A stretch of DNA of 64,000 nucleotides, taken from Bacteroidetes bacterium HGW-Bacteroidetes-2. Lineage in GTDB: Bacteria; Bacteroidota; Bacteroidia; Flavobacteriales; Flavobacteriaceae. This document shows positions 45,525 to 59,885 of this stretch, piece after piece. Positions within the stretch are counted from its first letter, which is position 1, and every line of letters starts with the position of its first letter. Both the position numbers and the translations under genes were made by a program. The DNA lies in contig PHDJ01000002.1 of NCBI GenBank assembly GCA_002842575.1, positions 97,647-161,646 on the forward strand. The letters run 5' to 3'. Under the pieces are notes generated by a model. The model was not told the origin of the DNA. It saw only the letters and a list, made by a program, of their open reading frames with translations, and made no database searches.

Positions 45525-45597
<73 letters not shown>

Positions 45598-45603
45598 CTA
45601 AAT

Positions 45604-45811: not shown

Positions 45812-46498
45812 ATGAATCCAAATACTGCCTTATTAATTTTTGCCAATACTGCAATTGAAGAATGTAAGAATAAACACTTCAGCCAAGCGCATAATCTATT
45901 TGAAGCGCTGAATAAAAACACCCTTAAAACGGTTCAAAAAACCGGAATTCCCTATTTTATTTTTACTGAAAAAGAGCAAGTTGGAACCAATTTTGCCCAG
46001 CGTTTTACTAATGCCATTCAAGCCGTTTTTGATAAAGGTTTTCAAAACATTATTACTATTGGTAACGACACGCCACATTTACAATCAAAACATATTGTAG
46101 ATACCGTTGAAAAACTACAAAACAACCAACTGGTTTTAGGGCCGTCAACCGACGGTGGTTTTTATTTAATGGGACTGAAAAAATCGCATTTCAACCCTAA
46201 GACTTTTTTAAAATTACCCTGGCAAACTGCCCAACTTACTAAAACTATTGCCAGACTTATTGGCAAAAAAAACAAAGGCGTTTCTTTTCTTGAAACCCTT
46301 CAAGATATCGATTTTGTTGCCGATGTTAAAGCCATTTTAAAAGACAAACTTCATCAAATTTCACTGGGTATTTTGCTTGTTTTAAAACAAGTGATTCGTT
46401 CTTTAAAACCTGCCCACAACAAAATTACTTCCCTTTATCATTCGCTTTGTAAATCAACTTACTTCAACAAGGGCTCGCCTCAAATGCTTCATATTTAG
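45812..46498 (+). CDS. TIGR04282/DUF2064 family glycosyltransferase-like protein (divergent)
   Basis: IITIGNDTPHLQSKHIVDTVEKLQNNQLVLGPSTDGGFYLMGL resembles DUF2064; lacks the usual N-terminal KTRL motif. Confidence 0.75.
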   Translation: MNPNTALLIFANTAIEECKNKHFSQAHNLFEALNKNTLKTVQKTGIPYFIFTEKEQVGTNFAQRFTNAIQAVFDKGFQNIITIGNDTPHLQSKHIVDTVEKLQNNQLVLGPSTDGGFYLMGLKKSHFNPKTFLKLPWQTAQLTKTIARLIGKKNKGVSFLETLQDIDFVADVKAILKDKLHQISLGILLVLKQVIRSLKPAHNKITSLYHSLCKSTYFNKGSPQMLHI

Positions 46499-46542
46499 TT
46501 TTTTACATTTTAAATATTATTAACAAAAAAACATTTTAAATA

Positions 46543-49536
46543 ATGAAGCATCTATTACTATTGGTGTTGCTTTGTATTTCCTATACAGCAATTGCCCAAG
46601 ACGATTTTACTGTAACCGTTATAGACAGTGAAACCAACCAAACCATACCTAATATTGAAATTAAATTAATAAACAGTTCACAAGGTATCAACCTTACCCA
46701 AACCACCAACGAACAAGGAAAAGCTATTTTTAGAAACATTCCGGTGTTAAATGGCTATCAAGTTTTTTTTGAAGGAAATAGCGACTTTGGGCCTTCTTTT
46801 AGTAGCCGAATTGACGTGCGCTCTAACCAAAGTCCAAACATTCAGTTAGTACTTTCAAAAAGCATTTCAAACGCGCAAGAGCTAGATGAAGTAGTACTTT
46901 CCAATCGTGCCATTGCAAAAATTAACCGCCGCGATGCCGAAGTGTCTTTTGAGCTTAAAGCCGAAGAAATTGAAGAAATTCCCGTTGAAGGTAGAGACAT
47001 TACGCGTGTGTTGTTTCGCTTGCCAAACGTAACGCAAGCCACCGGATTTTTCCCGGAAGCACCAAATGTGAGTGTCAATGGCGGTAATGGACTCTTTACC
47101 AATTATACCATAGACGGTATGGACAATAACGAACGCTTTTTAGGCGGACAAAAATTTAACATTCCTGCCGGAGCCGTAAAAGACATCACGGTTTTTACCA
47201 GTAACTACTCGGCTGAATATGGTTTAACCGGTAATGGTATTATTGATATTACCACAAAATCTGGAAGTAATACCACCAGAGGCGAGGCCTATTTCATCAC
47301 GCGTCCAGGACCGGATATTGATGGTTCCAGCCCGTTTGCGCAACGCGACTTATCCGGAAATCAAGTAAAAGACGGCTTTGCACGCTACCAAGCCGGTGGT
47401 GCTGTGGGCGGCGCTTTGGGAAAAGACAAAACCTTCTACTTTTTTAATTTTGAGCACACCACCGATATTAAAGACAACCTCTTAAACGTGCCCGATTTAG
47501 GGGTTAATGAAACCGTAAGAGGGAATAACTTTTTCAATTATTTCACCACAAAAATTGACCACAACTGGAACGCCAATTTTAGAAGTTCACTTAGAGCAAA
47601 CGTTGGTATTGTAGGTATAGAGCGTCAAGGTGGCGGTTTGGATGGCGGCGTGCAGTTTGAAAGCGCCAAAAATACCCAAGAACGCAACAGCATTAATATA
47701 GCCTTTAAAAACAGCTATAACTTTGGCAACCTTTCTGCAGAAACCAATGTGCTTTATAGCCGTTTTAGATGGAATTATGCCGACCCCGAGAATGAAAACG
47801 ACCCACAAGTGATTGTGCGCAACCCAAACGAAGAAACCATTGCCGTGTTAGGCCATCCCGGATTTGTGTTTGACGCTATTGAAAACACCTTTCAAGTGCA
47901 ACAAAAATTCAAATATTACCTAAACAACCATACCATTAAAGCAGGTGCTAACATCATTAGTGGCGACCACGAGCTTTTTGGTGGTGGCAACCCAAATGGC
48001 ATTTATACCGTTGACCTAACCCAAGCACAAATAGATGCCCTAAGAGCCGGTGGTGTAAATAAAAACCTAGGCGTAAATGATATTCCGCTAGATGCTCAAG
48101 TGGTAAATTATAATGTAGAATTGCGTCCTGCTTCCTTCGGAAAAACCCAAAATATCATTAGCTTTTATGTAGAAGATTTGTGGGCTGTTAACGAAAAACT
48201 AAACCTTACCCTTGGACTTAGATATGACTATGACAATTTATCAAAAGGCGGCAGTACTAAAGGCGACACCGACAATATTGCACCACGATTTAATTTCAAT
48301 TATGAATTAACCCAAAAAAGCACTATTAGAGGTGGTTATGGTATTGTGTACGACAAAATAAACTATGCACTTTACAGCGATGCCTTGCAGCAAAACACCA
48401 CTTCGGCTGATTATAGATTGCAAATACAAGAACTAATCAACCAAGGCATTTTACCCGCTAATACCGATATAGACCGCGTTACCTTCAACGGAAATATATC
48501 TGCCAATATAAGTGGTGTTGACTTTCTACAAGGACCTTCAGGTGCCGACTTGCAGGACCAACGCGAAGGTGTATTTTCAAACGAACGACGTATTTTAAAC
48601 CCCAACGGTTATGACAATCCGTTATCGCATCAGTTTTCATTGGGATACCAATTGCAAATGGACGATGACAAGTTGTTTTTTGTGGATGTGTTTCATAACC
48701 GTGGCGAAAACTTATTCCGTTTACGCAACTTAAATGCTGCTGAAGAATTTCCTATCGATGCCAATTTTCAGCCCGGCGATGTACGACCTACCGATGTTGC
48801 CGATGCCACCAGACCCATTCCCATTGTAAACGGTGTAGGTATTATAAATGGTCAAGAAGTAAGTGGTGTTGCCAGAAATGTGGTAATGAGCGAAGCTGAA
48901 GGCCGTTCAGAATATTGGGCTGCCAGTTTCAACCTGCAAAAAGTGCGTGGCAATAACAACTATTCGTACCGCTTAAACTACACGCTTTCTTCGCTAAAAA
49001 ACAATACCGAAGACATCAACTTTAGAGCTCAAGATGGTAATAATTACGGTACAGAATGGGGTCCGTCTATTAATGACAGAACCCATAATATTAACGGAAT
49101 ATTTAACTATTATCCAATAAAAGGAACAACCATAACCTTAGCCTCTTTATTACAAAGCGGACAACCCATTAATAGAATTCCCGATGCTGCCATTTTTGGT
49201 ACCACCGATTTAAATGGTGATGGCTCGGGCTTTGGTGATGCTTTTGTGGGCAATAGCGACCGCTCGCCCGGCGAAAGCAGAAACAACGACAGACTACCGT
49301 GGTCTTTCAATTTTGATGTGGGTGTGCAACATCAGTTTGCATTCGATAACAACACAAAAATTGAATTAAGAGCCGATATTTTTAATGTGTTTGATGTTGA
49401 AAACCTAAGCGGTTACAGCAACAATGCTACCCAAAGTAACCAAATTCAGGCTGGACCTGCGTCTTCAGGACGTTTTGTGCAGCGCAATGCCGGACCACCA
49501 AGACAGTTTCAGTTTGGGGTGCGTTATTTGTTTTAA
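46543..49536 (+). CDS. TonB-dependent receptor with carboxypeptidase-regulatory-like N-terminal domain
   Basis: Signal peptide, plug (GGNGLFTNYTIDGMDNNERFLGGQ...VKDITVFTSNYSAEYGLTGNGIIDITTKSGSN), barrel ending FQFGVRYLF. Confidence 0.93.
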   Translation: MKHLLLLVLLCISYTAIAQDDFTVTVIDSETNQTIPNIEIKLINSSQGINLTQTTNEQGKAIFRNIPVLNGYQVFFEGNSDFGPSFSSRIDVRSNQSPNIQLVLSKSISNAQELDEVVLSNRAIAKINRRDAEVSFELKAEEIEEIPVEGRDITRVLFRLPNVTQATGFFPEAPNVSVNGGNGLFTNYTIDGMDNNERFLGGQKFNIPAGAVKDITVFTSNYSAEYGLTGNGIIDITTKSGSNTTRGEAYFITRPGPDIDGSSPFAQRDLSGNQVKDGFARYQAGGAVGGALGKDKTFYFFNFEHTTDIKDNLLNVPDLGVNETVRGNNFFNYFTTKIDHNWNANFRSSLRANVGIVGIERQGGGLDGGVQFESAKNTQERNSINIAFKNSYNFGNLSAETNVLYSRFRWNYADPENENDPQVIVRNPNEETIAVLGHPGFVFDAIENTFQVQQKFKYYLNNHTIKAGANIISGDHELFGGGNPNGIYTVDLTQAQIDALRAGGVNKNLGVNDIPLDAQVVNYNVELRPASFGKTQNIISFYVEDLWAVNEKLNLTLGLRYDYDNLSKGGSTKGDTDNIAPRFNFNYELTQKSTIRGGYGIVYDKINYALYSDALQQNTTSADYRLQIQELINQGILPANTDIDRVTFNGNISANISGVDFLQGPSGADLQDQREGVFSNERRILNPNGYDNPLSHQFSLGYQLQMDDDKLFFVDVFHNRGENLFRLRNLNAAEEFPIDANFQPGDVRPTDVADATRPIPIVNGVGIINGQEVSGVARNVVMSEAEGRSEYWAASFNLQKVRGNNNYSYRLNYTLSSLKNNTEDINFRAQDGNNYGTEWGPSINDRTHNINGIFNYYPIKGTTITLASLLQSGQPINRIPDAAIFGTTDLNGDGSGFGDAFVGNSDRSPGESRNNDRLPWSFNFDVGVQHQFAFDNNTKIELRADIFNVFDVENLSGYSNNATQSNQIQAGPASSGRFVQRNAGPPRQFQFGVRYLF

Positions 49537-49548
49537 TTCATTTAATAA

Positions 49549-49587
49549 AAACCAAACAGGAAGTTTCAGAGGCTTTCTGTTTGGTTT
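49549..49587 (+). terminator. Intrinsic terminator after TonB receptor
   Basis: AAACCAAACAGGAAG/CTTTCTGTTTGGTTT hairpin (one G-U). Confidence 0.65.
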
Positions 49588-49601
49588 CATATATTTAGCT
49601 T

Positions 49602-50813
49602 ATGAGAAAGTATCTAATTATTTTATTTGCTGTAATGGTTTTTTCTTGTGGTGAAAACAAAAAGCAAGAAGCTGTTGATGTGTTATCACTTTCGTGGGAA
49701 GACATTGAGCAACAAGCCAACGGTAAAACCGTAACGATGATGATGTGGACTGGCGACTCAAAAATTAATGCTTATATAAATTCGTTTGTTAAACCAAAGA
49801 TTAAGAATACATATGGTATTAATTTAGAAATTATTGGTGGTCAAGGCGGAAATATCGTTCAAATATTAATGACCGAATTACAAGCTTCTGCATCTAAAAG
49901 TGATGTAGATATGATGTGGATTAATGGCGAAACTTTTTATCAATTAAGACAAATAAATGCGCTTTTTGGTCCTTGGACAGATAAATTGCCCAATTCAAAA
50001 TACATCGATTTTGAGAATCCTTTTATTGGTATGGATTTCCAACAACCTATTGAAGGCTTTGAACTTCCGTGGGGTAATGTGCAAATGGCTATTGTATATG
50101 ACAGTGCTAAAGTTGAAAATCCACCTATGAATCGTGAGGATTTATTAAACTTTGTAAAAGCAAATCCCGGAATTTTCACTTTTGACAATCAATTCACCGG
50201 ATTGACTTTTTTAAAAGCTTTGTTAATTGACATTGCTGGAGGTGGTGAAGTTCTGCAAGGAGATTTTGACGAGGAAAAATACAATCTATATAGTCAAAAA
50301 CTTTGGGCATACATCAACCAACTAAAACCTTATTTATGGCGAAAAGGACAAGTATTTCCGGAAAGTGTGGCACAAATGCACCAGTTATTTGCCAGTGGTG
50401 AACTTTGGTTTACAATGAGCAACAACGATGCAGAAGTAGATAGCAAAACCGCAGAAGGCTTATTTTCAGAAACTTCAAGAGCTTATGTACCCGATTTTGG
50501 CACCATACAAAACTCTCATTATTTGGGCATTACTAAATTGTCAGGGCAAAAAGCAGCCAGTATGGTGGTAGCAAATTTTATGGTATCGCCTGAGGCTCAG
50601 TTAGAAAAAATGAACCCTGTTATTTGGGGCGATGGCACCGTTTTAAATATGGAAGCACTTCCTAAAGATATGAAAGCCAAATTTCAAAACTTGCCTAGTA
50701 GAACCAAAGCACCTCAACGAAGTGAGATTCTGCATAAAGCACATTTAGAATTGGCACCGATGTATATGATTAAACTGGCCGAAGATTTTAGAAAAAAAAT
50801 TATCAATCCTTAA
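49602..50813 (+). CDS. ABC transporter substrate-binding lipoprotein, YnjB-like
   Basis: Lipobox VFSCG; WINGETFYQLRQINALFGPWTDKLPN...GFELPWGNVQMAIVYDS; followed by two permeases and ATPase. Confidence 0.85.
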   Translation: MRKYLIILFAVMVFSCGENKKQEAVDVLSLSWEDIEQQANGKTVTMMMWTGDSKINAYINSFVKPKIKNTYGINLEIIGGQGGNIVQILMTELQASASKSDVDMMWINGETFYQLRQINALFGPWTDKLPNSKYIDFENPFIGMDFQQPIEGFELPWGNVQMAIVYDSAKVENPPMNREDLLNFVKANPGIFTFDNQFTGLTFLKALLIDIAGGGEVLQGDFDEEKYNLYSQKLWAYINQLKPYLWRKGQVFPESVAQMHQLFASGELWFTMSNNDAEVDSKTAEGLFSETSRAYVPDFGTIQNSHYLGITKLSGQKAASMVVANFMVSPEAQLEKMNPVIWGDGTVLNMEALPKDMKAKFQNLPSRTKAPQRSEILHKAHLELAPMYMIKLAEDFRKKIINP

Positions 50814-50817
50814 ACTC

Positions 50818-51687
50818 TTGAAAAAGCTTTACAACATAAAATCGTTTAGCACCCTATTATTTTTAATAATTGTGGTCTTACCTGTGTTTTGTGGTTTGGT
50901 GTATGCTACGCTGTATAGTTTTGAAATAGTAGGTATTATAAACTCTGGATTTACTACCAAACATTGGGAAGATATTATCCAGGGTTCGGCATTTTGGAGC
51001 AGTATTGGTTTTAGTTTTTATGTAGCAATTTGCAGTGTTGTAATCAGTTTGATTTTTGCCTTAGCAATGGCTTTAAGTTGGAAAAAAAACCTTCAAAAAG
51101 GTGCGCTCTCCACCGCTATTTATCTTCCCTTGTGTTTTCCGGGTACGGTGATGGCTTTTTTTATGTTTCAGTTTCTGTCTAAATCAGGGTTTTTATCCCG
51201 ATTGGGTTTTGCGTCAGGTGTTTTAGAAGACATCAACAGCTTTCCGGCTTTGATAAACGACGCCTATGGTATTGGTATTATCATCACTTCGGTGGTTTTA
51301 ATTACACCTTTTTTTGTGATCTTATTTAGTAATATTTACCACACCGAAAACATTGAGGCTTATAAAGAATTGGCTACCACATTTGGTGCATCAAAGCGTC
51401 AATTATTGCAAAAAGTAACACTTCCTATTTTATTAAAAAAATCGTCGGTTACCATTTATTTGTTCATCATTTTTGTGATGGGAAGCTATGAAATTCCATT
51501 GTTACTTGGCAGGCAAAGTCCTCAAATGATATCGGTAGCAACTGTACAAAAAATTCAACGTTTTAATCTTTACGACATTCCAAAAGGCTTTGCAATGAGT
51601 ATTTTATATGTTTTAATTATTATGAGCGTATTGCTATTTCTGTATTTCAGAAATCGCGATTATTTTAAATCAGAAACAACTAAATGA
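50818..51687 (+). CDS. ABC transporter permease (first of two; YnjC-like)
   Basis: Six-TM permease with EAYKELATTFGASKRQLLQKVTLPILL (EAA loop). Confidence 0.88.
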   Translation: MKKLYNIKSFSTLLFLIIVVLPVFCGLVYATLYSFEIVGIINSGFTTKHWEDIIQGSAFWSSIGFSFYVAICSVVISLIFALAMALSWKKNLQKGALSTAIYLPLCFPGTVMAFFMFQFLSKSGFLSRLGFASGVLEDINSFPALINDAYGIGIIITSVVLITPFFVILFSNIYHTENIEAYKELATTFGASKRQLLQKVTLPILLKKSSVTIYLFIIFVMGSYEIPLLLGRQSPQMISVATVQKIQRFNLYDIPKGFAMSILYVLIIMSVLLFLYFRNRDYFKSETTK

Positions 51688-52457
51688 TAAAAAGGACATT
51701 ACAATATGGTTTTATCATTTCCATCGGGTTTCCGGTAGTATTTTTACTCGTGTTATCACTCGGAAGGCGTTGGGCTTATCCCAATATTTTGCCAGAACAA
51801 ATCAGTTTTGCTAATTGGGAATTTCTGCAACAAAGCGATTCAAAATTGTTTCAAGCGTTTTTTGTTTCGTTAGGAATTTCATTATGCGTTGCCGTTTTTG
51901 TAACCGCATTGGGCTTTGTGATTTCAAAATTTATTGCTTACAGCCAACGGCGCAATACCTTTTTGGTTTTGGCTTACATCCCTTATTTACTTTCGCCGGT
52001 GATAATGGCTATTATTTTTCAATATTATTTTATTATAACCGGGCTAACCGGAACTTTTTTGGGAGTGATTATTGCACAATTTTTAGTGGCTTTTCCATTT
52101 GGCATTATCATTTATCTCAACTTTTGGAATGCCCAATTAAAATCTATGGAAGAACTCAGTTATACCTTAGGTGGAAGCCGTTGGCAAACCTATAAAAAAG
52201 TGTTGCTTCCACTTTCAAAAAACGCCTTGATGCTTTGCTTTTTTCAGGTGTTTTTAATCTCTTGGTTTGAATATGGATTAACCAATCTTATCGGCTCCGG
52301 AAAAATAAGAACACTTACCGTGAGCGTTTTTAATTTTGTAACAGAAGCTAATATTTTTTATGCCGCATTGGCGTGTTTTTTGCTTATTTTACCACCAATG
52401 TTGCTTCTTTATATCAATAAGCGTTTTATTCTTTTTGTAGAAAAAACTGAACTATGA
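51684..52457 (+). CDS. ABC transporter permease (second)
   Basis: EELSYTLGGSRWQTYKKVLLPLSKNA EAA loop; 4-nt overlap with previous gene. Confidence 0.88.
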   Translation: MIKRTLQYGFIISIGFPVVFLLVLSLGRRWAYPNILPEQISFANWEFLQQSDSKLFQAFFVSLGISLCVAVFVTALGFVISKFIAYSQRRNTFLVLAYIPYLLSPVIMAIIFQYYFIITGLTGTFLGVIIAQFLVAFPFGIIIYLNFWNAQLKSMEELSYTLGGSRWQTYKKVLLPLSKNALMLCFFQVFLISWFEYGLTNLIGSGKIRTLTVSVFNFVTEANIFYAALACFLLILPPMLLLYINKRFILFVEKTEL

Positions 52458-53188
52458 GCCAATTTTTAACCATACAGCACCTCTATAAAACCTTTGGAAA
52501 GGAAACTGTTCTTCAGGACATCAATCTTACTTTGGATAAAAATACGGTTTTAAGTCTTTTAGGCTCTTCCGGAAGCGGAAAAACTACCTTATTAAAAATT
52601 ATTGCCGGTATAGAAACTGCGGATAAAGGCAATATATTTCTTGAAGGCAACAACATTAGTGACCAAAAACCTCAAGAACGACATATTGTTTATCTATATC
52701 AGGAAGCTTTGTTATTTCCGCATTTGAATGCCTTCGAAAATATTGCCTTTGGGTTACGACTACAAAAAATGAACGAAAGCCTAATTACAGAAAAAGTACA
52801 TTTAATGCTAAAAAATATAGAAATGACCAAACACGCCAAGAAAATGCCGCCTCAATTATCAGGTGGTCAAAAACAGCGCATTTCTTTTGGTCGTGCAATG
52901 ATTATTGAGCCCAAATTATTGCTTTTAGATGAACCTTTTGGTGCTTTAGATGCTTCCACACGAAGCAAAATGCAAGAACTTTTTAAAACTTTGGCGCACA
53001 ATATGAACCTTTCTGCCCTGTTTGTAACCCACGACTTAAAAGAAGCGATTGTTATGGGTGACCAGATTGGAAAAATTCAAAAAGGTCAACTCGTTCAATA
53101 TGAAACAAAAAATGAATTTTTTAACGATGCATTTTCAGGAGTTCAAAAAGAAATTGATTTCTGGAAAAGCATTGGTCAAAACACCTAA
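52454..53188 (+). CDS. ABC transporter ATP-binding protein
   Basis: Walker A GSSGSGKTTLL, LSGGQKQRISFGRA, LLLLDEPFGALDA. Confidence 0.95.
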   Translation: MSQFLTIQHLYKTFGKETVLQDINLTLDKNTVLSLLGSSGSGKTTLLKIIAGIETADKGNIFLEGNNISDQKPQERHIVYLYQEALLFPHLNAFENIAFGLRLQKMNESLITEKVHLMLKNIEMTKHAKKMPPQLSGGQKQRISFGRAMIIEPKLLLLDEPFGALDASTRSKMQELFKTLAHNMNLSALFVTHDLKEAIVMGDQIGKIQKGQLVQYETKNEFFNDAFSGVQKEIDFWKSIGQNT

Positions 53189-53191
53189 TCT

Positions 53192-53836
53192 ATGATACAA
53201 GCAGCAGTAATTTCAAATGGTTTAGAAGGTTTGCACCGATATTATGTGTCTAATAATTTGGTGCAATACACTGTTTTAGAAATCGATCAATATTTTAATC
53301 CTAATCTCGATGTGTTTGATTTATTAATTGTTCCAAATGGAAGCGACCACATAGCTATGGCAAAAATGAAGGATACAGTTTCGCAATTTTTAAACGATGG
53401 AAAAGCACTCTTTTGTTTTGATGGTTGGTTCACAAATTGGGTTCCCGGCAACCAATGGATTATGAGTAACGACAAAAAAACCATCGACATTAGGTATCGT
53501 GTTCATACAGACACTTACAAGCTTTTTGATGGGATAGACATCAACAAACTTATTTACAGTCACAATATTAGCGGTTGGTGGGCTTGTGGCTATATAGAAG
53601 CTTCTAAAAATGCAGAAGTTGTATTAGAAGACACCTGGAAACGTCCCATAATAGTGCTAGATGAAAAAACCACCAATGGCATAATGATTCTTACTGCAAG
53701 TGGCCCTTTAGGCGATAGCGGAGCCATACCGTCAGATGAAGCGTCTTCTTACACGACACTCGCAAACTTGTATCAAAATATGTTACATTTAATCATAAAA
53801 AAGAAAAATAATGAAAACCATAGGATTACTTTTTAA
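53192..53836 (+). CDS. ThuA-like / class I glutamine amidotransferase-like protein (copy 1)
   Basis: LLIVPNGSDHIAMAKMKDTVSQFLNDGKALFCFDGWFTNWVPG...; resembles ThuA-type flavodoxin-like fold. Confidence 0.5.
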   Translation: MIQAAVISNGLEGLHRYYVSNNLVQYTVLEIDQYFNPNLDVFDLLIVPNGSDHIAMAKMKDTVSQFLNDGKALFCFDGWFTNWVPGNQWIMSNDKKTIDIRYRVHTDTYKLFDGIDINKLIYSHNISGWWACGYIEASKNAEVVLEDTWKRPIIVLDEKTTNGIMILTASGPLGDSGAIPSDEASSYTTLANLYQNMLHLIIKKKNNENHRITF

Positions 53837-54461
53837 TGGTGTTTGGAGCCATTACACTTTTGCTACAGCACCCAAATACAAAGAGCTTATTAAACTTATT
53901 TACATTCACGATTTTAATGAAGCATCCTTAGAGGGTTTGGAAGCTCTAATAATTCCGTTTCAATCCAATCAAAAAGCTATTGCAAGCAAAAAAGAATTGA
54001 TTTATAATTTTCTTTCTAAAGGAAAAAAAATATTTGTTGAAGGCGACTCCTCTATGGAATGGCTTGATGCCAAATGGGAAGACCGCCCAACCAACAACTA
54101 TTGGTGGGTAGAAAACCCAAACAATCCGCCCATTAGCGAAACCGATTTTACACACCCTATCTATCAAGGATTAAGTGCCAGACATTCTTGTTGGCACACA
54201 CACGGTGCGTACACGGCTATTCCCAGCGAGGCAAAATCTATTCAAAAACATCCTAATGGTGAAATTATAAGTTGGGAAACAAACCAATATGGCGGCACGC
54301 TTTTTGCCACCACATTAGACCCTATCGTAGAGCACGGTGTACAACAAATTACACACCTCGATAATTATGTAGATAAACTCATTTATTGGTTGTCCGGAAA
54401 CAAAGTTTCGGGAACCTTCGAAGTTCCAAAAGAAAATTACGGTATTTCTATAGAATGTTAA
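53811..54461 (+). CDS. ThuA-like / class I glutamine amidotransferase-like protein (copy 2)
   Basis: LEALIIPFQSNQKAIASKKELIYNFLSKGKKIFVEGDSSMEWL...HPIYQGLSARHSCWHTHGAY; similar layout to copy 1. Confidence 0.5.
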   Translation: MKTIGLLFNGVWSHYTFATAPKYKELIKLIYIHDFNEASLEGLEALIIPFQSNQKAIASKKELIYNFLSKGKKIFVEGDSSMEWLDAKWEDRPTNNYWWVENPNNPPISETDFTHPIYQGLSARHSCWHTHGAYTAIPSEAKSIQKHPNGEIISWETNQYGGTLFATTLDPIVEHGVQQITHLDNYVDKLIYWLSGNKVSGTFEVPKENYGISIEC

Positions 54462-55195
54462 AAGAAAAAATTACAGAAGATTATACTCAAATTGTTTCTT
54501 TGAATGAAGCCAATGCTCAATTTCAAAGAAACAATGTTTGTGCTCCAATTTTTGAACCCATAAAACACAAATATCAACAGTTTAAAGGCTACAAATCGGA
54601 AGCCGATTTAGGTTTGGGTTGCGATTTTCCTTTTCAATACATCACAATTTCAAAAGGTCAGAAAGTTGCCGATTTGGGTTGTGCAGCAGGAATTGATTCT
54701 TTTATTTTGGCCGAAATGGTAGGGAAACAAGGCGTTGTTTATGGTTTTGATTTAACCGAAGCACTCATCTCTCGTGCCAATGCCATTAAAACAAAATACA
54801 CCATAGAAAACGTTCATTTTCAAACAGCAGACATTGCACAAATACCCCTAAATTCCGCTTCTGTTGATGTGGTAACAAGTAACGGCGTTTTTAGTTTGCT
54901 GCCTAATTTGGAATTGGTTTTTAAAGAAGTTTACCGAATTTTAAGGCCCAACGGTATTTTTTGCCTGTCGGATATTAATAAAAAAACACCTTTTAGTGAA
55001 GCCGATTATACCAAATTAAAGACATTTACGGGTTGCTTAAATGGCATCCGATTTCAAGAAGTTTATACCAATCATATCAAAAAAACAGGGTTTGCTCACT
55101 TTGAAATTGTTTCAGAACGTCCAGTTACGCTCCCCGAAAATATTTCAAAAAAGCAAGGTGTTTTTATTACAACTTTTAAAATTAAAAAAAATTAA
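54455..55195 (+). CDS. ArsM-like SAM-dependent methyltransferase
   Basis: VADLGCAAGIDSFILAEMVGKQGVVYGFDLTEALISRA; GLGCDFPF and FTGCLNGIRFQEVY align by eye with the conserved-Cys segments of arsenite methyltransferases. Confidence 0.75.
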   Translation: MLKEKITEDYTQIVSLNEANAQFQRNNVCAPIFEPIKHKYQQFKGYKSEADLGLGCDFPFQYITISKGQKVADLGCAAGIDSFILAEMVGKQGVVYGFDLTEALISRANAIKTKYTIENVHFQTADIAQIPLNSASVDVVTSNGVFSLLPNLELVFKEVYRILRPNGIFCLSDINKKTPFSEADYTKLKTFTGCLNGIRFQEVYTNHIKKTGFAHFEIVSERPVTLPENISKKQGVFITTFKIKKN

Positions 55196-55196
55196 A

Positions 55197-56138
55197 ATGA
55201 ATCAAGATTTCAACCACATACAATCCATCTATTGGGTGTTTACCCAGCTTTGCAACGACGATTGCGACCATTGCTATAACGACAGTAGCCCCTTTGGTGC
55301 GCGTATTTCTAAAGAAGATTGTATGGCCATTATAGAAAATCTTCCCGAAAAAGTAGATCGCCTCATTTTAAGTGGTGGCGAACCCTTGGCAGACCGCAAA
55401 TTGCTCTACGCCATTTTAGATAAAGTACACGAAAAATACCAAGGCAAAACCCAAATAATGCTGCAAACCAATGGCGATTTGCTCAACAAAGAACGCCTGG
55501 AAAAACTCATAGAAAAAGGCGTTACCCGTTTTGATATTGCCAGTATAGACCGCTATCACAAACACGCTGGTAATCGCCTGATGCAATTGGCAGATTTGTT
55601 TGAAAGCTGTGGCGTAAACGGCGACGACAAAGACCCTTTGGTTGACAGTAATTATTTAACCAACAAAAATTTGAGCTGGGGTTATTGGGGTGCCAACGAA
55701 GAAATGTGGATTGGCGGCAATTGGGCGCGCGGCAAAGCCTTAAAGCACGATATTTGGCACAAAGACCCCAATCATAATTTTTGCACCATACTTTCCGGTG
55801 CACGAAATTTTTTAGGAGGTTATGACGATATTCCGCAGGAAATTAGCATACAGTTGTGGCGCATCAATCCGTGTTGTCCCGGCACGCATTTCCCAATGGG
55901 CGATGCCCGAAAACAAAAAGTGGCAGAGGTTTTGCAGCGTGCATCACAAAACACCGTTTTTAAAATGCTTAACGATGGCGAACCCTTAAAAATGGGATTG
56001 CATTTAGGCATTTCAGAAGCAGATGCAAAAACTAAAAACGAAGAACTGAAAAACATTTGCCTCTATTGCGACCATTTTATGAAATGCCATAAAGATGATA
56101 TATTTGACAAAAACGGCGTTAAAATAACAGAAGAATGA
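55197..56138 (+). CDS. Radical SAM protein with C-terminal Cys cluster
   Basis: CNDDCDHCYND (CX3CX2C), LILSGGEPLADRKLL; C-terminal INPCCPG and ICLYCDHFMKC. Confidence 0.88.
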   Translation: MNQDFNHIQSIYWVFTQLCNDDCDHCYNDSSPFGARISKEDCMAIIENLPEKVDRLILSGGEPLADRKLLYAILDKVHEKYQGKTQIMLQTNGDLLNKERLEKLIEKGVTRFDIASIDRYHKHAGNRLMQLADLFESCGVNGDDKDPLVDSNYLTNKNLSWGYWGANEEMWIGGNWARGKALKHDIWHKDPNHNFCTILSGARNFLGGYDDIPQEISIQLWRINPCCPGTHFPMGDARKQKVAEVLQRASQNTVFKMLNDGEPLKMGLHLGISEADAKTKNEELKNICLYCDHFMKCHKDDIFDKNGVKITEE

Positions 56139-56629
56139 AACCAAAAAATTTAATAATGTTTTTAAGCCTTATGCCTGCCGTGCTTTTTAGCCAAGACAGT
56201 TTAGAAAAACTACTCAAAAAGCACAATGACAACTCGGTTCCTTATATTTCTGTGGATGAATTAAATGGAATTAAAAACGAAGTGATACTGCTAGATGCCA
56301 GAGAAAAAAACGAATTTGAAATCAGCACCATTAGCAGTGCTTATTTTGTTGGTTTTGATACCTTTTCAATAGAAAACTTCACTCAAAATTTTCCCGATAA
56401 AAATGCACACTATGTTGTTTATTGTTCCTTAGGAATACGCTCTGAAATTATTGGGAAACAACTAAAAAAAGCCGGCTATACTAATGTAAAAAACCTGTAT
56501 GGCGGTATTTTTGAATGGAAAAACAACAATTTTCCTGTGGTTGATTCCACCGGAACTGAAACCGAAAAAGTACACGCCTTTTCAAAACAATGGAGTAAAT
56601 GGCTAACTAAAGGAAATAAAGTATATTAA
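56135..56629 (+). CDS. Secreted rhodanese-like protein
   Basis: Signal peptide; VILLDAREKNEFEIS...VVYCSLGIRSEIIGKQLKKAGYTNVKNLYGGIFEW. Confidence 0.9.
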   Translation: MKPKNLIMFLSLMPAVLFSQDSLEKLLKKHNDNSVPYISVDELNGIKNEVILLDAREKNEFEISTISSAYFVGFDTFSIENFTQNFPDKNAHYVVYCSLGIRSEIIGKQLKKAGYTNVKNLYGGIFEWKNNNFPVVDSTGTETEKVHAFSKQWSKWLTKGNKVY

Positions 56630-56630
56630 C

Positions 56631-57308
56631 ATGGCAATTTCAACAAAAAAAGACACAAACGGGGATAATGAAATCCTGACAGATTTTTATTACCCAACCT
56701 CAAAAAAAGCACTGATTATTTTCACCCGAAACCCAGAGTTAGGCAAATGTAAAACTCGCCTTGCTAAAACTATAGGTGATGCCAATGCTTTAAATATCTA
56801 TAAGTTTCTTCTAATGCATACCGTTGAGATTACGACTAAACTAAAAGCAGATACGTTTGTGTATTATTCAGACACTATTTGGAAGGAAGACATCTGGAAT
56901 CCCGAAATTTTTAGAAAAAAACTGCAACAAGGAAAGGATTTAGGAGAACGTATGGAAAATGCATTTATCGATCTTTTTAAAATGGGATACAAACAAATCA
57001 TCATCATCGGCAGTGATATGCAAGACCTCTATCAAGAAGATATCGATGAGGCATTTCAGGCACTTGATACTTTTGATTATGTTTTAGGACCCTCTGAAGA
57101 CGGCGGCTATTATCTTTTAGGCATGAACCAATTCAAACCTGAACTTTTCAAAAACAAAGCCTGGGGCACCGATACCGTTTTACGCGACACACTCATCGAT
57201 TTAAAAAATGAGCAGATGCAATTACTGGAAGAACGAAATGACATCGATGTTTATGAAGACATAAAAGACAATCCCGTTTTTCAACAATTTTTAAATAAAA
57301 CTAACTAA
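56631..57308 (+). CDS. TIGR04282 family arsenosugar-biosynthesis-type glycosyltransferase
   Basis: ALIIFTRNPELGKCKTRLAKTIGD; IIIIGSDMQDL; YVLGPSEDGGYYLLGM. Confidence 0.9.
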   Translation: MAISTKKDTNGDNEILTDFYYPTSKKALIIFTRNPELGKCKTRLAKTIGDANALNIYKFLLMHTVEITTKLKADTFVYYSDTIWKEDIWNPEIFRKKLQQGKDLGERMENAFIDLFKMGYKQIIIIGSDMQDLYQEDIDEAFQALDTFDYVLGPSEDGGYYLLGMNQFKPELFKNKAWGTDTVLRDTLIDLKNEQMQLLEERNDIDVYEDIKDNPVFQQFLNKTN

Positions 57309-57327
57309 ATATTAATCTATAAACATT

Positions 57328-57346
57328 CCCCCTCCTTAGGAGGGGG
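57328..57346. repeat. Perfect GC-rich palindrome CCCCCTCCTTAGGAGGGGG
   Basis: 9-bp arms, 1-nt centre, ends 12 nt before the PNP ATG. Confidence 0.7.
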
Positions 57347-57357
57347 CAGGGAGGACA

Positions 57358-58170
57358 ATGAAAGAACAACTAAACAAAACTGTACAATTTTTAAAAGAAC
57401 GGGGCTTCGGTACACCAGAGGTAGGAATCATTCTTGGCACCGGACTAGGCCAGCTGGCTGAGGCTATTCAGACAGAAGTGGAAGTGAGTTACAACCACAT
57501 TCCTTTTTTCCCAACAGCCACTGTGGAGTTTCACCAAGGGAAATTTCTTTTTGGCGATCTTTCTGGCAAAAAAGTCGTAGTGATGCAAGGACGTTTTCAC
57601 GTGTATGAAGGATATTCCTTGCGCGATGTTACTTATCCTGTTCGTATTATGGAGCAGTTGGGCATTAAAACACTTTTAGTGTCTAATGCTGCTGGAGCAA
57701 TAAATCTCAACTTCAAAAAGGGCGAATTGATGCTGATTAACGACCACATAAACTTGCAAGGAAGCTCGCCATTAGCATTTAAAGGCGTAACTCAGCTAGG
57801 CGAGCGTTTTGTAGATATGAGTGCGCCCTATGATCTAAAACTAAATGATACATTAAAAGAAATAGCAAAAAAACAACATATAACTTTGCACGAAGGTGTT
57901 TACGCATCTGTGGTAGGACCACAATTAGAAACAAGAGCAGAGTACCGAATGTTAAAAATATTAGGTGCAGATGCCGTAGGAATGAGCACAGTGCCAGAGG
58001 TAATAGTTGCCAACCATTTAAACCTTAACGTTATTGCCGTTTCAGTTATCACTGACGAGTGCAATCCCGCTGATTTAAAACCGGTAAACATTCAAGAAAT
58101 CATAGCTTATGCCACCAAAGCCGAACCCGATTTGGTAGCACTTTTTAAAGAATTAATAAAAGAATTATAA
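57358..58170 (+). CDS. Purine-nucleoside phosphorylase
   Basis: GIILGTGLGQLAEAI; VVMQGRFHVYEGYS; VSNAAGAINLNFKKGELMLINDHINL; STVPEVIVANHLNL. Confidence 0.95.
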   Translation: MKEQLNKTVQFLKERGFGTPEVGIILGTGLGQLAEAIQTEVEVSYNHIPFFPTATVEFHQGKFLFGDLSGKKVVVMQGRFHVYEGYSLRDVTYPVRIMEQLGIKTLLVSNAAGAINLNFKKGELMLINDHINLQGSSPLAFKGVTQLGERFVDMSAPYDLKLNDTLKEIAKKQHITLHEGVYASVVGPQLETRAEYRMLKILGADAVGMSTVPEVIVANHLNLNVIAVSVITDECNPADLKPVNIQEIIAYATKAEPDLVALFKELIKEL

Positions 58171-58179
58171 CTAGTAGAA

Positions 58180-58252
58180 GCCTATCCCGCTATTCGCTTT
58201 ATCTTTTTTTACTCTAAAGAAGCAAAAAAAGGATGCCGCTACTATCGAGGCT
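58180..58252. repeat. Intergenic hairpin-forming element (imperfect inverted repeat)
   Basis: GCCTATCCCGCTATTCGCTTTATCTTTTTTT...AAAAAAAGGATGCCGCTACTATCGAGGCT. Confidence 0.4.
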
Positions 58253-58322
58253 AAAAAAATTATTTACAAAACCCCTGTAAGGTTTGTAGATTACACCCTA
58301 ACTAAAGCAACAAATTGTTTGT

Positions 58323-59126
58323 ATGAAAAAAATAACCTATCTCACCTTAACACTTAACCTACTCCTATTTATGCCACAATGCAACAATCTTTCAGCTGCG
58401 GGATTAAGCAATAAAGGACTTCCCATAAAAGAAGTAACCGGAAAGTTAACTTCCACCACGGCTAATTCATCTGTAAACTTAAATCACGATGCTTGGACAG
58501 CTTTACTTAAAAAACATGTGGACCATCAGGGAAATGTAGATTATAAAGGTTTTAAAAAAGACCAAGAAAAATTAAAAGAATACCTTAATTACCTTTCTAA
58601 AAACAAACCCAATGACGGTTGGTCTGTTCAAGAACTTTTAGCATATTATATCAATGTTTACAATGCTTTTACTGTAGAATTAATTGTAGAAAACTATCCC
58701 CTAAGTAGCATAAAAGATATTCGGGGCCCTTGGAAACAAAAATTTATTCTCATTGGCGATGAAACTTTTTCCTTAGGAGATGTAGAACATAAAATTTTAA
58801 GAAAGATGAACGAACCGCGCATTCATTTTGCGATAAATTGCGCATCCCAATCATGCCCTAAACTTCTTAACGAGGCTTATGTAGCAGCAAAAATTGATCA
58901 ACAACTTAATGCAGCAGCAAAAAAATTCATCCTCTCTTCTGAAAATAAACTATCTGAAAAGCAGTTGCAACTTTCTAAAATATTTGATTGGTTTGGAAAA
59001 GATTTTATTAGTGATTCAACCCCCACAGTTGCATCATTTATAAACAAATATACTGAAATCCACATTCAGCCCAATGCTAAAGTTACTTATTTTGATTACA
59101 ATTGGAGTTTAAACGAAAAAAAATAA
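58323..59126 (+). CDS. DUF547 domain-containing protein
   Basis: NVDYKGFKKDQEKLKEYLNYLS...LLAYYINVYNAFTVELIVENYPLSSIKDI...RIHFAINCASQSCPKL. Confidence 0.9.
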   Translation: MKKITYLTLTLNLLLFMPQCNNLSAAGLSNKGLPIKEVTGKLTSTTANSSVNLNHDAWTALLKKHVDHQGNVDYKGFKKDQEKLKEYLNYLSKNKPNDGWSVQELLAYYINVYNAFTVELIVENYPLSSIKDIRGPWKQKFILIGDETFSLGDVEHKILRKMNEPRIHFAINCASQSCPKLLNEAYVAAKIDQQLNAAAKKFILSSENKLSEKQLQLSKIFDWFGKDFISDSTPTVASFINKYTEIHIQPNAKVTYFDYNWSLNEKK

Positions 59127-59144
59127 GCACTTTTGTGCTATTCC

Positions 59145-59885
59145 ATGAAGATTAGCATAATTATTCCGGTTTTAAATGAAGAAGAGCATATCTCTATACT
59201 AATTTCCTATCTTAAAAAAAATTCTTCTTCTAAAAACATTGCTGAAATTATTGTTGTTGATGGCGGCAGTACAGATGGTACATTTACGGTTGCCGAAGCA
59301 GAAAACGCCGTGGTTATTTCTTCTAAAAAAGGCCGTGCTATACAAATGAATACCGGAGCAAAACAGGCAACCGGCGAAATTCTTTATTTTCTTCACGCAG
59401 ATTGTTTGCCTCCCAAAAATTTTGATATTGAAATCTTACAGGCTATACAAAACGGGCATTTAGCAGGATGTTTCCGCCTTAAATTTGACAGTAACCACTG
59501 GTGGCTCAAACTTGCAGGATGGTTTACCAGATTTAATTGGAGCAACTGCCGTGGCGGTGACCAAAGCCAATTCATTACAAAGGCTTTGTTTGAAGATATT
59601 GGTGGTTATGATGAATCTTTCCTAATTTATGAAGATAATATCCTTATCAAAGAACTATATAAAAGAAATCGTTTTACCGTACTCCCTAAAACGATTACTA
59701 CCTCTGCGCGATTGTATAAAGAAAAAGGCATCTGGACATTGCAATACCATTTCTGGGCAATCCACTTAATGAAAAGACTTGGTGCAACAGCTAAAGAATT
59801 GTATGCTTACTATGCAAAAAACATCAAAGAGTCAGAAACCAATTCACATACAACTTCCTCTCAAAAAAATTTTGCAGATAAATAA
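59145..59885 (+). CDS. TIGR04283 family arsenosugar-biosynthesis-type glycosyltransferase
   Basis: ISIIIPVLNEEEHISILISYL; EIIVVDGGSTDGT; GRAIQMNTGAKQATGEILYFLHADCLPP. Confidence 0.92.
   Translation: MKISIIIPVLNEEEHISILISYLKKNSSSKNIAEIIVVDGGSTDGTFTVAEAENAVVISSKKGRAIQMNTGAKQATGEILYFLHADCLPPKNFDIEILQAIQNGHLAGCFRLKFDSNHWWLKLAGWFTRFNWSNCRGGDQSQFITKALFEDIGGYDESFLIYEDNILIKELYKRNRFTVLPKTITTSARLYKEKGIWTLQYHFWAIHLMKRLGATAKELYAYYAKNIKESETNSHTTSSQKNFADK

Follow-up and report, generated by a model that had tools for sequence, protein, structure and literature searches.

A Bacteroidota operon joining a YnjBCD-type importer and an unnamed radical SAM family to the downstream half of the arsenosugar locus

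Introduction

During oxo-arsenosugar biosynthesis, the radical S-adenosylmethionine (SAM) enzyme ArsS adenosylates arsenic (PMC12159101), and in Synechocystis it acts with the methyltransferase ArsM in the first steps of arsenosugar biosynthesis (PMC8552651). In Bacteroidia, canonical ArsS loci contain varying subsets of AhpD, ArsS, a rhodanese, a TIGR04282 transferase (T2), a purine nucleoside phosphorylase (PNP), an arsenosugar-type ArsM (AsSugarArsM), a DUF547 protein and TIGR04283. The other described system of interest here is the uncharacterised ATP-binding cassette (ABC) importer YnjBCD of Escherichia coli. We analyzed a cluster of 15 named genes in a 64,000-nucleotide stretch of Bacteroidetes bacterium HGW-Bacteroidetes-2 (assembly GCA_002842575.1, contig PHDJ01000002.1, positions 97,647 to 161,646), referred to below as the window. 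An initial annotation had described this cluster as arsenosugar-like and biosynthetic, with its own uptake system. Judged from neighbourhood and co-occurrence, it belongs to arsenosugar-type metabolism. We tentatively read the operon as a variant of the Bacteroidota arsenosugar locus geared to salvage, in which an importer and a different radical SAM enzyme stand in for lost ArsM and ArsS; this is the best-supported reading, although it falls a little short of an even chance.

Results

The cluster consists of two joined modules. Module A comprises a degenerate TIGR04282 paralogue (T1), a TonB receptor, a YnjB-type binding protein, two permeases, an ATPase and the radical SAM enzyme, while module B comprises the rhodanese, T2, PNP, DUF547 and TIGR04283 genes and forms the downstream half of the arsenosugar locus found in Bacteroidota. 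GTDB genomes were scanned with a profile of the radical SAM protein, giving 48 loci, mostly from Bacteroidota. The seven-gene order of module A, from T1 to the radical SAM gene, was complete in 25 of the 48, and the importer genes adjoined the radical SAM gene in 35, with contig ends cutting some loci. This linkage is far beyond chance, and the conservation among relatives on which the initial annotation had staked its case was therefore found. The radical SAM gene was also looked for on plasmids, where none was detected. In a sample of 295 Bacteroidia it occurred in three genomes and YnjB in four (the same three and G202); because three of the four YnjB genomes carry it, the radical SAM protein goes with the importer rather than with ArsS. 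It was noted that rhodanese-T2-PNP lie downstream of module A in the window and in L008-L011, L013, L014, L017 and L019.

Two ThuA-like genes (ThA and ThB) and a methyltransferase gene form an optional insert in module A. Among the 48 loci, ThA-ThB were seen only in the window, L011, L017, L035, L039 and L045, and the methyltransferase accompanied them in the window, L011, L017 and L035.

The cluster sits in a chromosomal slot that an ArsS locus (L122) occupies in a relative. There, the pantothenate kinase gene (PanK) and tRNA-Phe are followed by AhpD-ArsS-rhodanese-T2-PNP-AsSugarArsM-DUF547-TIGR04283, and in the window PanK and tRNA-Phe are followed, at a distance, by rhodanese-T2-PNP-DUF547-TIGR04283. 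Two genes beyond PanK also match between L122 and the window, and these two and PanK show 40-51% identity. The window therefore has this slot too, but the arsenic-specific genes are gone from it and module A stands in their place; the L122 genome also holds module A, elsewhere (L007). We found no ArsS or AhpD remnants in the window, and both ArsS and AsSugarArsM are missing from the whole genome, which is 99.99% complete.

Among the relatives' genes, c51 scores 436 bits against TIGR04167 (cut-off 300) and is a true ArsS, c50 is AhpD-like, and the arsenosugar ArsM (576 bits; cut-off 400) lies in the same cluster as ArsS and AhpD in sister loci. TIGR04282, TIGR04283 and PNP had been singled out as arsenosugar-neighbourhood genes, and these loci confirm it; in the window they are present together with the rhodanese and DUF547 genes in conserved order. 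The proposed link to arsenosugar metabolism is thus upheld by neighbourhood and co-occurrence, whereas the de novo pathway proposed with it is not. With neither ArsS nor AsSugarArsM anywhere in the genome, the cluster does not represent de novo arsenosugar synthesis of the known type.

ArsS and module A are found together in several relatives, with ArsS placed before T1 in L010, L011/L127 and L014 and after ThB in L039 and L045. ArsS adjoins module A in five of the ten module-A genomes that have ArsS, which has a probability of ~5e-8 by chance before phylogeny is considered. The ThA-ThB-methyltransferase set was considered as a replacement for ArsS and rejected, as L011/L127 carries all three with ArsS and L039 and L045 carry ThA-ThB with ArsS.

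The radical SAM protein is not ArsS and represents an unnamed, strongly conserved family. It matched Radical_SAM PF04055 at 59.6 bits (cut-off 29.5), its CX3CX2C motif is invariant in 47 sequences along with five more cysteines (Table 1), and identity to the window protein was 59-96% across loci, except for L049 (44%). No family model scored above its cut-off, and the match to ArsS TIGR04167 (22.3 bits; cut-off 300) covered the common core only, with no DUF3641 domain, in agreement with the earlier remark that the protein does not read like ArsS. The AlphaFold model (predicted local distance difference test score 83) resembles EpeE and BtrN, with weaker similarity to SpeY, viperin and AbmM; in profile searches of PDB, AbmM, EpeE and BtrN ranked best, for the core only. 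Together with the five additional invariant cysteines, this fold match may indicate an auxiliary FeS domain of the twitch/SPASM class. Several of these enzymes work on sugars or nucleotides, and radical SAM chemistry on a ribosyl group is therefore plausible by analogy. A selenocysteine in the L004 radical SAM match was considered and rejected, as the in-frame TGA is a natural stop near the C-terminus.

The methyltransferase resembles ArsM over nearly its full length (NF008823, 181 bits), as initially annotated, but only below the model cut-off (263). Nor does it keep all three arsenic-binding cysteines (Cys72, Cys174 and Cys224 of CmArsM), so that it does not qualify as a true ArsM. All four orthologues have Gly at the Cys174 equivalent, reading SNG where ArsM has SNC; what is kept is the equivalent of Cys224 (GCLNG) and a single N-terminal Cys. 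The C174A variant of CmArsM is inactive with both arsenite and monomethylated arsenic (PMC3877260), and therefore arsenite methylation by the window protein appears unlikely. Its substrate may be something else, or an already organic arsenical held by fewer thiols. L035 encodes an orthologue and, nearby, a true ArsM (367.8 bits; cut-off 263).

These results bear on whether the cluster makes a new organoarsenical de novo, as was first proposed: the ArsM-like protein would methylate an imported arsenical, and a radical SAM enzyme that replaces ArsS would adenosylate it. Such a route would suit the position of the methyltransferase gene immediately upstream of the radical SAM gene, the PNP gene downstream, and the loss of ArsS with its companion genes kept. 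However, the methyltransferase is missing from most module-A loci and has lost the Cys174 equivalent, while the radical SAM protein is conserved in loci without it and is related to ArsS by the common core only (22 bits). Because true ArsS coexists with the radical SAM protein in L010, L011, L014, L039 and L045, the latter is not simply an ArsS replacement. We consider this route improbable, and the methylation and adenosylation of an imported arsenical were not borne out.

The downstream genes co-occur with ArsS or module A at the genome level. TIGR04283 was found in 25 of the 295 Bacteroidia, 23 of them with ArsS and the remaining two (the window genome and G202) with YnjB. Among the 48 radical SAM genomes 22 carry TIGR04283, 16 of these without ArsS. 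When ArsS-negative genomes were compared, TIGR04283 was present in 16/38 with the radical SAM gene and 1/246 without it (p = 6e-15, shared ancestry ignored), and the sole carrier among the 246 has the importer; rhodanese NF045521 was present in 31/38 and 14/246, respectively. AsSugarArsM was found in 0/38 ArsS-negative radical SAM genomes and in 6/10 ArsS-positive ones.

The uptake system named in the initial annotation was confirmed by hidden Markov model (HMM) searches, which recovered a YnjB-type protein above the NF008633 cut-off with two permeases and an ATPase adjacent in the order P1-P2-ATP, and a TonB plug and barrel. Its substrate is suggested by neighbouring genes elsewhere. In G202 (L121:8447-14649), the genes after T1-YnjBCD encode a nucleoside hydrolase and an S-methylthioribose-kinase-like protein (112 bits; cut-off 275, not reached), with no radical SAM gene. 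A nucleoside hydrolase also lies just before the importer in Peptoclostridium. These neighbours point to a nucleoside or 5-substituted ribose, and we infer a 5-substituted riboside or nucleoside as the simplest common denominator. In other phyla, YnjBCD operons hold varying subsets of TVP38, rhodanese, FAD oxidoreductase, AhpD, DUF547, sterol desaturase and CDP-alcohol phosphatidyltransferase, all but the last of which are also common to ArsS loci. In 20 loci from the phylum to which the deltaproteobacterial relative L049 belongs, YnjBCD never adjoined ArsS, although FAD oxidoreductase, DUF547 and hydroxylase neighbours are shared; several of the YnjBCD partner genes thus lie beside ArsS in a distant phylum. 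A literature search returned nothing tying YnjB to radical SAM enzymes and no account of the cluster genes as an arsenosugar uptake system.

A catabolic role, in which algal arsenosugars or nucleosides are scavenged and degraded as nutrients through the importer and the radical SAM enzyme and the downstream genes are historical neighbours, would account for the ThuA-like pair, the TonB receptor and the hydrolase and kinase-like genes behind the G202 importer. TIGR04283 and the rhodanese nevertheless co-occur genome-wide even when unlinked, which speaks for a common route of anabolism or tailoring, and we regard catabolism as quite unlikely.

An arsenic-free parallel pathway has more to commend it and is still doubtful. 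Here another small molecule (a nucleoside, a thio- or seleno-riboside, or a polyol) would be imported, modified by the radical SAM enzyme and finished by the tailoring enzymes of the ArsS locus, and the arsenosugar names of TIGR04282 and TIGR04283 would reflect neighbourhood only. It fits the genome-wide absence of ArsS and AsSugarArsM from the window genome and all 38 ArsS-negative relatives, a methyltransferase without the cysteine needed for arsenic methylation in CmArsM, and the absence of ArsS beside YnjBCD in E. coli and the other YnjBCD operons examined. Against this, several relatives have ArsS and AsSugarArsM within the same cluster, the slot is common with the ArsS locus, and in the Bacteroidia sample TIGR04283 is otherwise found only with ArsS.

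Discussion

In the salvage-type variant that we tentatively favour, transport would run inward, the TonB receptor and YnjBCD importer taking up a 5-substituted ribosyl or nucleoside compound that is scarce and already formed. This would most likely be an arsenosugar or a deoxyadenosyl-arsenical precursor of one; the ArsS product or a derivative fits as substrate because ArsS adenosylates arsenic and works with ArsM in Synechocystis. The linked radical SAM enzyme would act on the imported compound, probably on its sugar or nucleoside part, after which PNP, TIGR04282, TIGR04283, DUF547 and the rhodanese would process it as they process the ArsS product in other species. That the imported compound is an arsenosugar or 5'-deoxy-arsenoadenosine, and that a dedicated TonB/ABC importer with a new radical SAM family replaces ArsM/ArsS as vitamin importers replace vitamin synthesis, is a rather unlikely form of the proposal.

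Several observations weigh against salvage. Arsenic enters the argument by inference, and an obligately linked radical SAM enzyme would be superfluous if the import were the plain ArsS product. YnjB has no PDB relative by sequence (phmmer, 32-sequence profile). PNP, T2 and TIGR04283 are not adjacent in most module-A loci, and 26 of the 48 module-A genomes lack TIGR04283 anywhere. ArsS is neither enriched nor depleted in radical SAM genomes (10/48, compared with 46/295 Bacteroidia; p = 0.40), so that a general genome-level association of module A with ArsS was discarded, the two being associated only by physical linkage where both occur. The p-values take no account of shared ancestry, and many of the genomes are metagenome-assembled genomes (MAGs) whose incompleteness can hide ArsS; the non-MAG genomes L008, L009, L016 and L017 give the same co-occurrence pattern.

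If salvage is correct, the importer would allow cells to lose ArsM/ArsS. The orphan YnjBCD transporter of E. coli would gain a suggested role, and this importer a substrate class. A function would be assigned to an unnamed radical SAM family, and environmental bacteria would have a way of recycling organo-arsenic compounds. Caution would also be called for with the arsenosugar biosynthesis labels on TIGR04282 and TIGR04283, since genomes that cannot produce arsenosugars by the known route carry them.

Gene layout and side observations

All 15 genes lie on the forward strand between 45812 and 59885 at the positions first annotated (Table 1), and 9 of the 14 junctions overlap or leave at most 4 nt. 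Better start codons were assigned at 54455, 55197 and 59145. The first gene, T1, had been called TIGR04282-like; it is related to that family but is a degenerate paralogue scoring 104.9 bits, below the threshold of 134. In the tree T1 forms its own clade, in which the KTRL loop is lost throughout and the T1 genes of ArsS loci are nested among those of radical SAM loci. Of the two proteins annotated as ThuA-like, neither gave a Pfam or NCBIfam match in HMM searches or anything meaningful against PDB by sequence; the name holds for the predicted structure of ThB (top PDB match 1t0b, E = 6.4e-6), to which ThA is apparently homologous by profile comparison (E = 4.9e-6).

Table 1. Positions of the cluster genes and the bordering tRNA in the window
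Feature	Position	Strand	Remarks
tRNA-Phe(GAA)	45525..45598	+	left border of slot common with the relative's ArsS locus L122
T1, degenerate TIGR04282/DUF2064 paralogue	45812..46498	+	lacks GKxKTRL nucleotide loop; first gene of importer module; found in ArsS loci too
TonB-dependent receptor, 997 amino acids	46543..49536	+	Plug, CarboxypepD_reg, OMP_b-brl_4 domains
YnjB-family solute-binding lipoprotein	49602..50813	+	NF008633 377.8 bits (cut-off 203); 34% identity to E. coli YnjB
ABC permease 1	50818..51687	+	BPD_transp_1; equivalent of one half of YnjC
ABC permease 2	51684..52457	+	BPD_transp_1; equivalent of other half of YnjC
ABC ATPase (YnjD)	52454..53188	+	HMM match
ThA, ThuA-like protein	53192..53836	+	matches no family model; optional insert
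ThB, ThuA-like protein	53811..54461	+	matches no family model; predicted fold nearest 1t0b
ArsM-like methyltransferase	54455..55195	+	Cys174 equivalent missing (SNG, not SNC)
Radical SAM enzyme, uncharacterised	55197..56138	+	CX3CX2C; extra invariant Cys 197, 227, 228, 289, 292; predicted twitch/SPASM-like fold
Rhodanese-domain protein	56135..56629	+	NF045521 202.6 bits (cut-off 145)
T2, TIGR04282 transferase	56631..57308	+	214.6 bits (cut-off 134); KTRL loop intact
Purine nucleoside phosphorylase (PNP)	57358..58170	+	PRK08202 354.4 bits (cut-off 218)
DUF547 protein	58323..59126	+	97.9 bits (cut-off 27)
TIGR04283 glycosyltransferase	59145..59885	+	240.5 bits (cut-off 182)

An 18-pair near-perfect inverted repeat at 49549-49587, between the TonB receptor and binding-protein genes, is possibly an attenuator or terminator dividing the receptor from the ABC genes. 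In a Saprospiraceae group (L041:153-2645 and L038, L042-L044, L052) a GH32 gene of sucrose/levan type stands before the radical SAM gene, and the importer is not nearby. The deltaproteobacterial MAG L049 encodes a distant (44-45%) radical SAM relative (L049:3143-4734) with a VTT/TVP38 protein directly after it, and elsewhere in that genome TIGR04283 adjoins a T1-like gene (L190). The contigs of L045 (Armatimonadetes MAG) and L025 (Thalassovita MAG) resemble Bacteroidota-type sequence, and these MAG labels may be wrong. A Pseudoalteromonas operon (L134:1575-12104) has the order TonB receptor-FAD oxidoreductase-DUF547-YnjBCD-CDP-alcohol phosphatidyltransferase-sterol desaturase; the imported compound could there be attached to phospholipid.

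Comparison with known systems

The predicted fold of ThB is shared with ThuA-like proteins (1t0b), from which the window proteins differ by matching no Pfam or NCBIfam model and by occurring as a pair. The methyltransferase shares with ArsM arsenite methyltransferases a near-full-length match, the Cys224 equivalent and one N-terminal Cys, and is set apart by its sub-cut-off score and the change of Cys174 to Gly. Similarly, the radical SAM protein shares its predicted fold and core motif with the twitch/SPASM enzymes EpeE, BtrN, SpeY and AbmM, whereas identity is ~16% and the family has its own set of invariant cysteines.

The E. coli ydjXYZ-ynjABCDEF region likewise combines a YnjB-type binding protein, permease and ATPase with a rhodanese nearby. 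Unlike the window, it encodes the permease as one fused protein, along with DedA proteins, AhpD and a CDP-alcohol phosphatidyltransferase, and it is without the radical SAM enzyme, TonB receptor, PNP and TIGR04283 of the window cluster. With the arsenosugar locus defined by ArsM and ArsS TIGR04167, including the ArsS of Synechocystis, the window has in common the rhodanese NF045521, TIGR04282, PNP, DUF547, TIGR04283, T1 and the chromosomal slot. It differs in that ArsS and AsSugarArsM are missing from the genome and AhpD from the window, which carries instead a TonB/YnjBCD importer and a different radical SAM family.

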